From Novosphingobium ginsenosidimutans (GTDB lineage: Bacteria > Pseudomonadota > Alphaproteobacteria > Sphingomonadales > Sphingomonadaceae): a stretch of DNA of 64,000 nt. The stretch spans positions 186,001 to 250,000 of the forward strand of contig NZ_CP042345.1 in the NCBI RefSeq assembly GCF_007954425.1, given 5' to 3'. The translations under genes and the position numbers were made by a program. Below, piece after piece: positions 2,890-44,038 of this stretch (positions are counted from its first letter, which is position 1; the number at the start of each line of letters is the position of its first letter). The notes beneath the pieces were generated by a model, which was not told the origin of the DNA, did not search any database, and saw only the letters and a program-made list of their open reading frames with translations.

Positions 2890-3085
2890 CCGCCCGGCTG
2901 CGGAACGACCGTCACTGGCAGGTCTCCTGGCTCCCGGATCAGCGCCTTGCCCCGCCTTCCCAGTCCGAAAACCAGTGGCATGTGGAGGCTTGGCTCCCCG
3001 GTCACAGTTGCGGGGGCAGCGCGGCATTTCCAACCGCTTCCCTCTTAGGTCTGGCGCTAACCAGACAACCGATGACGTGCCGCAT
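2890..3085 (-). promoter_or_regulatory. Cobalamin (B12) riboswitch aptamer
   Basis: The minus strand contains the class-defining conserved blocks in order: GCTGCCCCCGCAACTGTGA (3002-3020), GCCACTGG (2972-2979) and AGCCAGGAGACCTGCC (2917-2932), with a 5' stem near 3040-3075. These match the adenosylcobalamin riboswitch core. It precedes a BtuB-like receptor and should repress it when B12 is plentiful. The exact ends are approximate. Confidence 0.95.
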
Positions 3086-3246
3086 CCCTAATCCGGGCCA
3101 ACCGCAAGGGCAAGATTTTAACCGCTTAAGGCTATCGCGCAGGCTCGTCCCGCTTCGGCACGGCGCGATTTGCGTTGTGGCGCGGCACCCCGTCCCGGCC
3201 TTACGCGCTACGTCGCGTAATCAGCAGGAACCGAATGGTCGCAACT

Positions 3247-35745: not shown

Positions 35746-36282
35746 ATGAAGGCAAATGTCCTGCTGTTCGGTCTTCTTGCGCCCGCTCTGCTGAGCGCCT
35801 GCGCGCCGCAGACGCCGGCCCCCACACCCGTGCCTGCACCGCGCCCGGTCGCCACAACCGCCCCGGCGGCGCCGACCCCTCCCCGCTTCACCGGCGATTG
35901 GCGCGATGCACCGCTCACGCTAGGTGCCTGGCGCTGGTCTGTGGCGGGCGGACAATCCGTCGCCAGTTTCGGCCTGACCGCGCAGAGTCCGCCAATCATG
36001 TTGGCTTGCATCGCCAAAGGATCGGTCCAATTGCGCGTCGCCGGTAACGTAACAACGGCCACACCGATCGGCATCACCACCTCCGGTGGTACCTTTCCCT
36101 TGATGAGCGATCCCCCCTCGCCTGGCGCCACAGCAATTGTCGTGACGCTCCCGGCGCGGGCACCGGTGCTCGATGCGATGGCGTTCTCGCGCGGTCGCTT
36201 TGTGATCGAAGTAGCTGGCCAGTTACCCAGCTATTTGCCTGCCTGGCCCGAAGTGGCCCGCGTGATCGAGGATTGCCGCTAA
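35746..36282 (+). CDS. Small lipoprotein with Pro/Ala linker, unknown
   Basis: 178 aa. A signal peptide with lipobox (LLSAC, Cys about residue 19) is followed by a Pro/Thr/Ala-rich linker (about 20-48) and a compact beta-rich domain. 'WRDAPLTLGAWRWSVAGGQSVASFG' and the C-terminal 'WPEVARVIEDCR' look conserved. I do not recognise a characterised family. It is probably in the outer-membrane periplasmic leaflet. It stands alone between tlyA and the long non-coding gap. Confidence 0.7.
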   Translation: MKANVLLFGLLAPALLSACAPQTPAPTPVPAPRPVATTAPAAPTPPRFTGDWRDAPLTLGAWRWSVAGGQSVASFGLTAQSPPIMLACIAKGSVQLRVAGNVTTATPIGITTSGGTFPLMSDPPSPGATAIVVTLPARAPVLDAMAFSRGRFVIEVAGQLPSYLPAWPEVARVIEDCR

Positions 36283-36475
36283 ATTCCAGACTGTGGAAAA
36301 CCGGCGCGGAGCAGGCCGGAAGCCCCGGATTCTGACACCGAAAAAAATCATTTCAAGTCTTGTTGTGCAGCGCGGAATGATTCACATTCCATCCCAAGGC
36401 CCATCGGGCTTCGCCGATGGCCCCGACCGCCCTGAGGGGTGGTCCTTGGCTCAACAGCGCGAAAGGAGGTGACCG

Positions 36476-36532
36476 ATGTCTCATGGTTCAGCAGGGAGGT
36501 CGGTAACCCGCAAAACGGAGCATTATCGCTGA
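36476..36532 (+). CDS. 18-codon ORF with perfect Shine-Dalgarno
   Basis: ATG at 36476 is preceded by AAAGGAGGTGA, an exact complement of the 16S rRNA 3' tail, with 4 nt before the start. It encodes MSHGSAGRSVTRKTEHYR, then TGA. The peptide is basic and has no run of one amino acid. The stop lies in the loop of the next stem, where an ATGTAA start-stop pair (36538-36543) also occurs. Translation is plausible but unproven. Confidence 0.45.
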   Translation: MSHGSAGRSVTRKTEHYR

Positions 36533-36587
36533 GGTCGATGTAAGCGATAGAGGCTTCGTGAGCGGCGCTTCCGGCCGCTGACCATGC

Positions 36588-36630
36588 GAAGGGCGGTTCT
36601 CGGGTTGCCGGGGCCGCCCTTCTCATTTTT
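36588..36630 (+). terminator. Intrinsic terminator before ilvE
   Basis: GAAGGGCGG (36588-36596) pairs with CCGCCCTTC (36614-36622), and TCATTTTT follows. It ends the structured RNA and lies 142 nt before the ilvE start. Confidence 0.85.
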
Positions 36631-36699
36631 GCCCTGCACACTTGGCCCGCAGCCTGAATCTGCTTAGACCGAGCCAGAGTGAATAGTCCCGCACGATAA

Positions 36700-36725
36700 T
36701 TACCTTTTTCTTGTCTTTGAGGTAA
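36700..36725. promoter_or_regulatory. Inverted repeat in the ilvE promoter region
   Basis: TTACCT (36700-36705) and AGGTAA (36720-36725) are perfect inverted 6-mers separated by 14 T-rich nt, 47 nt before the ilvE start and after the terminator. It may be a regulator site for ilvE; the regulator is unknown. Confidence 0.35.
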
Positions 36726-36771
36726 CTTTAGTTCAGAGGCACCGCTTCACAGTCAGAAGGATTCCGACCCG

Positions 36772-37857
36772 ATGCTCGCCGCCACCACTTTCGCCCATGT
36801 GCCCCACCCCGCCCCGACGGCGGACGCGGTACGCGCCGGGCTGGTGGCCGATCCGGGCTTTGGCAAGATCTTTTCCGATCACATGGTGACGATCGACTGG
36901 ACCGAGGGCCAGGGCTGGCATTCGGCCACGCTTGGCCCGCGCCAGCCGATCGCGCTCGATCCGGCGGCATCGGTGCTGCACTATGCCCAGGAAATCTTCG
37001 AAGGGCTGAAGGCCTATCGCCTGGCCGATGGCACAATGGCGCTGTTCCGGCCCGAAGCCAACGCGCGCCGCTTCAACGCTTCGGCCCAGCGGCTGGCGAT
37101 GCCCGAATTGCCGGAAGACCTGTTCATCGAGGCGATCCGGCAACTCGTGGCGGTCGATGCTGACTGGTTCCCGTCGGTCGAGGGTGGATCGCTTTATCTC
37201 CGCCCCTTCATGATCGCGACCGAGGCCTTCCTGGGCGTGCGCCCGGCCAAGGAATACAAGTTCATTGTTATCGCCAGCCCGGCCGGCAACTATTTCAAGT
37301 CGGGCGCGCCGGCGGTGTCGATCTGGGTCTCGGACTATACCCGCGCTGCGCCCGGCGGGACCGGCGCGGCCAAGTGCGGCGGCAACTACGCCGCCAGCCT
37401 GGTCCCGACTGCCGAAGCCTTTGCCAAGGGCCATGACCAGGTGCTGTTCCTCGATGCGGCCGAGCACAAGTGGATCGAGGAACTGGGCGGCATGAACCTG
37501 TTCTTCGTGATGGCCGACGGCCGGATCGTCACCCCGCCGCTGACTGGCACGATCCTGCCCGGCGTGACCCGCGATAGCCTGCTGCAGCTCGCCGCCGAGG
37601 AAGGCCTCAAGGTCTCGGAAGAACCCTACAGCCTTGATCAGTGGCAGGCGGATGCCGCTTCCGGCGCGCTGCTTGAGGCCTTTGCTTGCGGCACGGCGGC
37701 AGTCGTTACCCCCGTCGGCAAGGTTGCTGGGCGTGACCGCGAATTCACGATCGGCAGCGGCGGCCCGGGGCAACTGACGCAGAAGCTGCGCAGCCGCCTG
37801 GTTTCGATCCAGCGCGGTGAAGCACCCGACCCGCACGGCTGGGTGCTCAAGCTCTAA
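36772..37857 (+). CDS. ilvE: Branched-chain amino-acid aminotransferase (type II)
   Basis: 361 aa fold-type IV PLP aminotransferase of the longer BCAT class. 'LHYAQEIFEGLKAYR' is the N-terminal substrate-site motif, 'SLYLRPFMIATEAFLGV' holds the conserved Arg, 'KCGGNYAASL' carries the Schiff-base Lys, and 'EELGGMNLFFV' follows. It transaminates Leu, Ile and Val with their 2-oxo acids. Its own promoter probably lies after the upstream terminator. Its stop codon overlaps, tail to tail, the stop of csoR. Confidence 0.95.
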   Translation: MLAATTFAHVPHPAPTADAVRAGLVADPGFGKIFSDHMVTIDWTEGQGWHSATLGPRQPIALDPAASVLHYAQEIFEGLKAYRLADGTMALFRPEANARRFNASAQRLAMPELPEDLFIEAIRQLVAVDADWFPSVEGGSLYLRPFMIATEAFLGVRPAKEYKFIVIASPAGNYFKSGAPAVSIWVSDYTRAAPGGTGAAKCGGNYAASLVPTAEAFAKGHDQVLFLDAAEHKWIEELGGMNLFFVMADGRIVTPPLTGTILPGVTRDSLLQLAAEEGLKVSEEPYSLDQWQADAASGALLEAFACGTAAVVTPVGKVAGRDREFTIGSGGPGQLTQKLRSRLVSIQRGEAPDPHGWVLKL

Positions 37858-43963: not shown

Positions 43964-44038
43964 TGGGGCGTAGCCAAGCGGTAAGGCACCGGTTTTTGGT
44001 ACCGGCATGCGAAGGTTCGAATCCTTCCGCCCCAGCCA
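43964..44038 (+). tRNA. tRNA-Gln (UUG)
   Basis: 75 nt cloverleaf with encoded CCA. Acceptor TGGGGCG/CGCCCCA, anticodon stem CCGGT/ACCGG around loop TTTTGGT with anticodon TTG, and T-arm with GGTTCGAATCC. The discriminator is G. It is transcribed with, and lies 56 nt before, the acyl-CoA dehydrogenase gene. Confidence 0.96.

Follow-up and report, generated by a model that had tools for sequence, protein, structure and literature searches.

The small RNA encoded upstream of ilvE in Novosphingobium ginsenosidimutans would, in the reading that we favour and to which we give a probability of roughly 0.48, just short of even, work by engaging ribosomes and not through its peptide or a neighbouring gene, with a helix (P2) that closes its start site. 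Comparison with its relatives shows an extended complement of the 16S tail, a start, frame and stop that are kept around a neutral-looking peptide, covariation of P2, and independence from neighbouring genes. The RNA was analyzed within a stretch of 64,000 nt, hereafter the window, whose positions are used throughout.

A structured RNA in the gap upstream of ilvE

The gap at 36283-36771 (489 nt) lies between a lipoprotein-like gene and ilvE, and the RNA is on the + strand. A structured RNA with an exact Shine-Dalgarno sequence (SD), an 18-codon ORF and a terminator had been predicted in this gap from the letters alone, and it proved real: the segment 36393-36630 folds more stably than its shuffled versions (z -4.4, 0/200 shuffles as stable), and so does the segment 36450-36630 (z -5.0, 0/200 shuffles as stable). 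The features of the locus are as follows.

35746-36282: lipoprotein-like gene, 178 aa, with an LSAC motif and no Pfam match
36354-36387, + strand: putative promoter, a block kept in the genus alignment
36394-36449, + strand: 5' three-way-junction domain with a CCAAGG/CCTTGG closing stem (MFE fold)
36461-36472, + strand: extended SD GAAAGGAGGTGA, complementary over 12 nt to the usual alphaproteobacterial 16S 3' tail
36476-36532, + strand: 18-codon ORF, MSHGSAGRSVTRKTEHYR and stop
36482-36488, + strand: 5' strand of the P2 helix, CATGGTT, codons 3-5, pairing with 36580-36586 (covariation)
36524-36549, + strand: P3 hairpin TATCGCT/AGCGATA, arms 36524-36530 and 36543-36549 (MFE and RNAalifold folds)
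36565-36580, + strand: rival SD partner GCGCTTCC (predicted minimum-energy fold), whose CGCTG pairs with CAGCG at 36455-36459
36580-36586, + strand: 3' strand of the P2 helix, GACCATG, directly 5' of the terminator
36588-36630, + strand: intrinsic terminator GAAGGGCGG...CCGCCCTTC TCATTTTT (predicted folds; the helix covaries in 48 class copies)
36772-37857: ilvE, with the Pfam domain Aminotran_4

At the 5' end of the putative promoter, the palindrome CAAGTCTTG (36354-36362) overlaps a -35-like CTTGTT (36359-36364), which a 17-nt spacer separates from a -10-like TCACAT (36382-36387); these elements (36359-36387) were judged against the alphaproteobacterial promoter consensus, and we infer that transcription starts near 36394. 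The form CAAGwCTTG was found in 29/30 same-genus copies and a wider promoter expression in 21/30, and the CAAGwCTTG palindrome is a possible operator of the RNA. A sigma-70 promoter scan of the window did not list the block 36354-36387. At the other end, the terminator consists of a hairpin core (36588-36622 in the MFE fold) followed by TCATTTTT; a simple terminator scan did not list the hairpin 36588-36630, probably because of its branched loop. Between the two, the sequence of the three-way junction varies within the genus, and the stop codon TGA (36530-36532) overlaps the 5' arm and the loop of the P3 hairpin.

Not all the motifs that had drawn attention to the locus are features of the RNA. 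The motif GGAGGT/GAGGT was said to recur three times: the second GAGGT is conserved (GGTCGG is invariant in the 26-row genus alignment A1) and in the predicted fold pairs with CCGATGTCT around the start codon, and the conserved GGA, a motif that would matter to a CsrA-binding decoy, falls within the 16S complement, but the third GAGGT (36531-36535) occurs only in the window's own row of A1. The same is true of an ATGTAA start-stop pair, which had been put forward as a feature and is present in the window's row alone among the 26. Judged on this alignment, the ATGTAA pair and the third GAGGT are probably due to chance.

The RNA is related to CC2171

At gathering scores, a cmscan search of the window returned only a cobalamin riboswitch (2900-3088, - strand) and a tRNA (43964-44035, + strand), both above their Rfam cut-offs, and gave no match for the RNA at 36393-36630. 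Below that level, however, the model RF01867 (CC2171, a Caulobacter sRNA) matched 36453-36620 over its full length (model positions 1-159) with 41.9 bits and an E-value of 2.6e-7, short of its gathering score of 75 bits, and the combination of SD-start block, P2 helix and adjacent terminator is present in the window at 36461-36630. As a homology test without circularity we used a covariance model, R2, that holds no sphingomonad rows; its 48 rows are non-sphingomonad copies, namely the first of 71 eligible ones, and all come from pattern-chosen loci. On the 64-kb window R2 gave the RNA copy 51.7 bits (E 1.5e-11; next match E 5.4), and in the whole genome the window copy was its sole match at E<=0.01. 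The original prediction had matched the RNA to no named family, a statement overturned by the sub-threshold RF01867 match and its confirmation by R2. By these sequence comparisons, the window RNA is homologous to CC2171, yet it remains under the Rfam criterion, and we term it CC2171-like.

Both RNAs have the same order of parts, namely GAAAGGAGGUGAUCC, RUGUCUCAU, a helix between codons 3-5 and GACNAUG, and the terminator. They differ in the letters of P2, which are CAUGGUU/GACCAUG in the window and CAUUGUC/GACAAUG in CC2171, and in the ORF, which has 18 codons and an ATG start in the window whereas 114/118 listed class copies have 19-26 codons and 114/118 start with GTG. CC2171 is typed in Rfam as an sRNA gene, and neither the ORF nor the 16S complement is described in the available literature passages. 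For the same family, the Rfam 15 paper gives one additional covarying pair in the part available (PMC11701678).

RF01867 matched 36/37 genomes of the same genus, own genome included, and 0/24 genomes from other families of the order (both under strict filters). Across the class it matched 69/289 genomes, 9 of which reach the cut-off, and among 14 control genomes it matched Caulobacter vibrioides above the cut-off. A match below the cut-off in the control genome of Deinobacterium chartae is either chance or a distant copy. A second model, R1, made from 26 genus copies, matched 180/199 genomes of the same family (88/96 genera) and only 20/289 class genomes; R2 matched 62/289 class genomes, some of them over the SD-start block only. 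The string AAAGGAGGTGATCCNRTGTCTCAT, with up to 2 mismatches, was found in 36/289 class genomes versus 0 for its reversed control, and in 18/200 genomes of the phylum, that is, 18/51 of the same class and 0/149 outside it. An exact-pattern scan returned at least 120 class loci, in which the letters of the SD, the start and codons 2-3 are not free, since the pattern holds them. Among the 80 locus titles listed, 1 is a non-alphaproteobacterium (a Ramlibacter MAG), 3 are given only as Proteobacteria and the rest are alphaproteobacterial. One genome of the same family (G151, locus L292) carries both a canonical CC2171-like copy (68.9 bits) and a sphingomonad-type copy (34.6 bits). Taken on sequence, this distribution suggests that CC2171-like RNA is class-wide, found over much of the Alphaproteobacteria, and that the window RNA represents its sphingomonad form.

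Being near-universal in the family and covarying, the RNA is scarcely credible as a structure formed by chance or as a relic that is no longer transcribed. In the available part of a Mesorhizobium study, MH_s33 is a CC2171 match tabled with 215 nt in columns that we take as RNA-seq; this speaks further against a relic and hints at expression as a discrete small RNA, for the Mesorhizobium relative only (PMC5596092).

The RNA is independent of its neighbouring genes

The location in front of ilvE had led to the proposal of a terminating leader of this gene, i.e., a cis-acting leader or attenuator under branched-chain amino-acid control. In close relatives the synteny agrees with it, since ilvE lies downstream in 28/30 genus loci and in 27/30 additional loci of the family (both counts include the own genome). 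The association is lost beyond them: ilvE was found at 1/40 loci from more distant members of the family (about 1.2 kb on each side), so that it is missing in 39/40, and at 0 of the 120 listed class loci at E 1e-5 (0.7-8 kb each, some cut by the contig end), with one weak match among them at E 0.56. Moreover, the distance from the RNA to ilvE ranges from about 80 to 900 nt, the RNA has its own terminator, and the ORF of the window has one Val codon and no Ile or Leu codon. We reject the ilvE leader, which synteny largely refutes and which we consider highly improbable.

On the upstream side, the lipoprotein-like gene precedes the RNA at 30, 29 and 33 of the 30, 30 and 40 family loci of the three groups, that is, 92/100 (own genome twice). 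Among the 120 listed class loci, the widest shared neighbour cluster comprises 14. In rnTrpL of Sinorhizobium, a leader-peptide attenuator, a short ORF, an SD and a terminator are combined in one small transcript, as they are here; the window RNA differs from attenuators of this type in that the gene downstream is not conserved across the class and a diagnostic codon run is missing. Judged on its genomic contexts, the RNA is a free-standing unit, independent of neighbouring genes and with its own terminator.

Complementarity of exceptional length to the 16S 3' tail

The complement of the usual 16S tail was measured in 100 family loci that had been retrieved with covariance models: the 30 best RF01867 matches, the 30 best R1 matches and 40 picked weaker R1 matches. 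Among the 99 distinct copies it extends over 15 nt in 88, 12 nt in 8, 11 nt in 2 and 9 nt in 1, and 15 nt is well beyond an ordinary SD. The SD of the window lacks one T (GTGACC) and is thereby complementary to the usual tail over only 12 nt. The sequence AAAGGAGGTGA (36462-36472) occurs once in the 3.12-Mb genome, but a reversed control pattern also occurs once, so its uniqueness says little. The 15-nt form GAAAGGAGGTGATCC was found in 77/99 family genomes, in 66 of them once, and of 30 sites checked (one per genome) among the 92 listed, 26 were this RNA, 4 were 16S antisense and 0 were anything else.

In one genome with a readable 16S end, GGATCACCTCCTTTCT (G105), the RNA of the same genome complements it over 15 nt. 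The usual 16S end was searched for in the genome of the window and not found, and an upstream 16S motif was located in 1/25 genomes. Only AAAGGAGGTGATCC, TGTCTCAT and a single G in the P2 3' strand are invariant among the 48 class copies; these rows were chosen by a pattern that holds AAAGGAGGTGATCC and TGTCTCAT, and the family copies retrieved with the models are a fairer sample.

The part that is constant across the class is the one that faces the 30S subunit and the rest is mostly shape, which argues for the ribosome as the partner of the RNA. Among the roles guessed at in the original prediction, that of an SD-displaying decoy for ribosomes comes closest to the comparative data. The long SD could also simply be a ribosome-binding site for very high expression. 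In the available part of a Staphylococcus aureus study, extended SDs are described whose pairing with the anti-SD is longer than usual and governs initiation, and small ORFs are involved (PMC13009471). Long SD-antiSD pairing and small ORFs are also found here; the difference is that the S. aureus cases are mRNAs and uORFs of one species, as far as that part goes, while here a dedicated small RNA pairs over up to 15 nt class-wide (PMC13009471).

Start, frame and stop are kept around a neutral-looking peptide

In the 99 distinct family copies, the ORF has 18 codons in 92 and 15-21 codons in 99/99, ending in TGA (45), TAA (44) or TAG (10); in the other two frames the position of the stop ranges from codon 5 to outside the 300 nt that were read. 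Among the 120 class loci listed, 118 have complete ORFs of 14-33 codons, starting with GTG in 114 and ATG in 4, and the other 2 are cut by the contig end. After de-duplication, an in-frame stop at codons 14-28 was present in 53/54 sphingomonad-type copies, versus 10 and 26 of 54 in the other frames, and in 113/116 other copies, versus 17 and 26 of 116. The three exceptions among the latter stop at codons 29, 30 and 33. The single sphingomonad-type exception, L246, has a 58-codon ORF and is probably an ordinary gene, and thus the pattern is not perfectly specific.

The encoded residues behave differently. In 31 close pairs from outside the sphingomonads, 56, 62 and 60 substitutions fall at codon positions 1, 2 and 3, and 39 synonymous face 96 non-synonymous codon changes, a small sample. 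In codons 10-15 of the family copies, the entropy is lowest at position 3 (0.87, compared with 1.07 at position 1 and 1.35 at position 2). Residue 4 is C, R, S, L or G, with codon 4 being mostly TGT, TGC, CGT, CGC, AGT or GGT depending on its P2 partner, and two copies (L089 and L099) have a shifted frame and retain a nearby stop. Neither the 31 pairs nor the entropy by codon position gives the purifying selection on the peptide that a small-protein gene should display. From these comparisons it looks as if start, frame and stop are kept by selection while the peptide evolves neutrally; the RNA structure also constrains the ORF and may mask selection on the peptide, and related copies are not independent. 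A literature text search with the peptide strings gave no match.

That the RNA is a small mRNA, as had also been suggested, agrees with the maintained ORF and not with the seemingly unmaintained peptide. If the RNA were an mRNA with an unusually strong ribosome-binding site that encodes a functional peptide of about 18-26 residues, this would account for the kept start, frame and stop. Against a functional peptide stand the neutral-looking synonymous and non-synonymous changes in the 31 pairs, the lower variation at position 3 in codons 10-15, a residue 4 that follows P2 pairing and the frame-shifted copies that keep a nearby stop, and we regard it as improbable. The dual-function sRNAs SgrS/SgrT and RNAIII are likewise small structured RNAs that carry a short ORF; their peptide is functional, whereas here it is apparently not conserved. 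In Caulobacter, ribosome profiling found ncRNAs, mostly intergenic ones, untranslated and two earlier-predicted ncRNAs translated; the former finding counts against our favoured ribosome-engaging reading, the latter would favour the functional peptide, the two are not named in the available part, and CC2171 may be on either side, as the group that holds it is not given there (PMC4117421).

P2 joins the start of the ORF to the stretch before the terminator

P2 is a helix between codons 3-5 and the 7 nt immediately 5' of the terminator, and it covaries through all four letters at codon 4. Its partner was sought only beside independently found terminators, which were located in all but 3/169 copies (L084, L123 and L246), and hexamers from other copies served as control. 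A strict 6-bp partner was present in 112/166 copies versus 23/4316 control trials, and with G-U pairs allowed in 133/166 versus 115/4316; it was absent beside the terminator in 54/166 and 33/166 copies, respectively. The strict pairs are of 7 types: CATTGT/ACAATG, CATTGC/GCAATG, CATGGT/ACCATG, CATCGC/GCGATG, CATCGT/ACGATG, CATAGT/ACTATG and CATGAA/TTCATG. A CATTTG/CAAATG pair in L158 was left uncounted, as it is not beside the terminator located in that copy.

In the fixed columns of the alignment of the 48 class copies (A2), 95.5% of the P2 cells are paired, and in 16 cells both sides have changed; slid versions of the helix bring the paired share down to 28-58%, and 0/500 shuffles reach the values observed for the whole structure of P2 and terminator. 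An earlier permutation of P2 (0/300) was biased for this helix since the partner was picked by complementarity; the terminator-anchored and fixed-column tests are fair. A structured RNA, as predicted, is supported by covariation, of P2 in the 166 copies and the 48 class copies and of the terminator helix in the 48 class copies. Four class copies (L298, L299, L304 and L307) are divergent: their peptides differ, and their P2 sequences may differ too; in L298 a free-register search, which is only suggestive, gave the candidate P2 ATGAGATT/AATCTCAT.

P2 is absent from the minimum-energy fold of the window copy, and forcing it costs 8.1 kcal/mol. Averaged over 40 sphingomonad-type copies the cost is 4.1 kcal/mol (below 1 in 1/40), and over 84 other copies it is 1.0 kcal/mol (below 1 in 61). 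Most of the SD is paired in the MFE fold of the window, with 29% left unpaired, and GCGCTTCC/CACTTCC buries it in both this and the RNAalifold fold. This SD sequestration is a possible rival fold according to the predictions, and GCGCTTCC is largely kept in the genus. The SD hardly varies, and its partner drifts in other genera. In terms of predicted folds, P2 and the SD-burying structure may both be real alternatives. A pseudoknot between AGCG (before the SD) and CGCT (before GACCATG), prompted by one double change in copy L080, was dropped after a permutation test on 124 de-duplicated copies (mean duplex energy -3.73 for the real and -3.71 for the permuted pairs; 126/300 permutations at least as good).

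The behaviour of P2 also bears on a trans-acting base-pairing sRNA that would be translated incidentally, being dual-function or protected by translation, with an exposed loop that targets mRNAs and a strong SD that serves mainly for protection of the RNA or control of its folding. CC2171 is classed as an sRNA in Rfam, the gene stands alone with a terminator and has a rich conserved structure, and the stretch around CCGGCCGCTGACCATG is largely conserved within the family, all of which would fit such a role. However, almost nothing is constant outside the SD-start block in the 48 class copies, and the P2 3' strand follows its own 5' partner instead of staying constant, and we find a base-pairing sRNA rather unlikely. 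Hfq-bound sRNAs are given under CCNA numbers, not mapped to CC2171, in the available part of the study concerned (PMC11005374).

A model of ribosome engagement

Ribosome engagement, the reading that we prefer, would proceed as follows. A discrete transcript of about 235 nt would be produced from the RNA's own presumed promoter and end at its terminator, and would engage the 30S subunit by pairing over an exceptional length with the 16S 3' tail. About 18 codons would then be translated, across the hairpin region and with a stop before the P2 3' strand, and the ribosome would leave inside the RNA; what is selected would be ribosome binding or translation rather than the peptide. P2 would let the RNA close around its own start site. 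Relative to the start codon the P2 5' strand occupies +7 to +13, a region inside the 30S footprint. P2 and initiation should therefore exclude each other, and the closed and the ribosome-engaged states would be mutually exclusive by geometry. With such a switch, the RNA would be open when loaded with 30S and closed otherwise, and could report on or titrate free 30S subunits.

A more specific version, which we consider unlikely enough to offer only tentatively, is that the RNA targets the anti-SD tail of the 16S rRNA throughout the class, capturing free 30S subunits by its nearly full complement of this tail, that the short ORF, whatever its peptide, then releases them, and that P2 closes when 30S is scarce, making the RNA a sensor or buffer of ribosomes competent for initiation. 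Should the ribosome itself be the target, translation capacity would be controlled here in a way that is new, and CC2171-like RNA, whose Caulobacter sRNA is so far unexplained, may act on or report on ribosomes. In the available parts of the literature that names CC2171 or RF01867, no function is stated for CC2171, and on that literature the 15-nt 16S complement, the kept ORF with a neutral-looking peptide and the four-letter covariation of P2 seem undescribed.

The 16S complement has a possible practical side. The conserved class-copy block AAGGAGGTGATCCA is identical to the beginning of a widely used universal 16S reverse primer, and primers of this kind could also anneal to the RNA gene through it.
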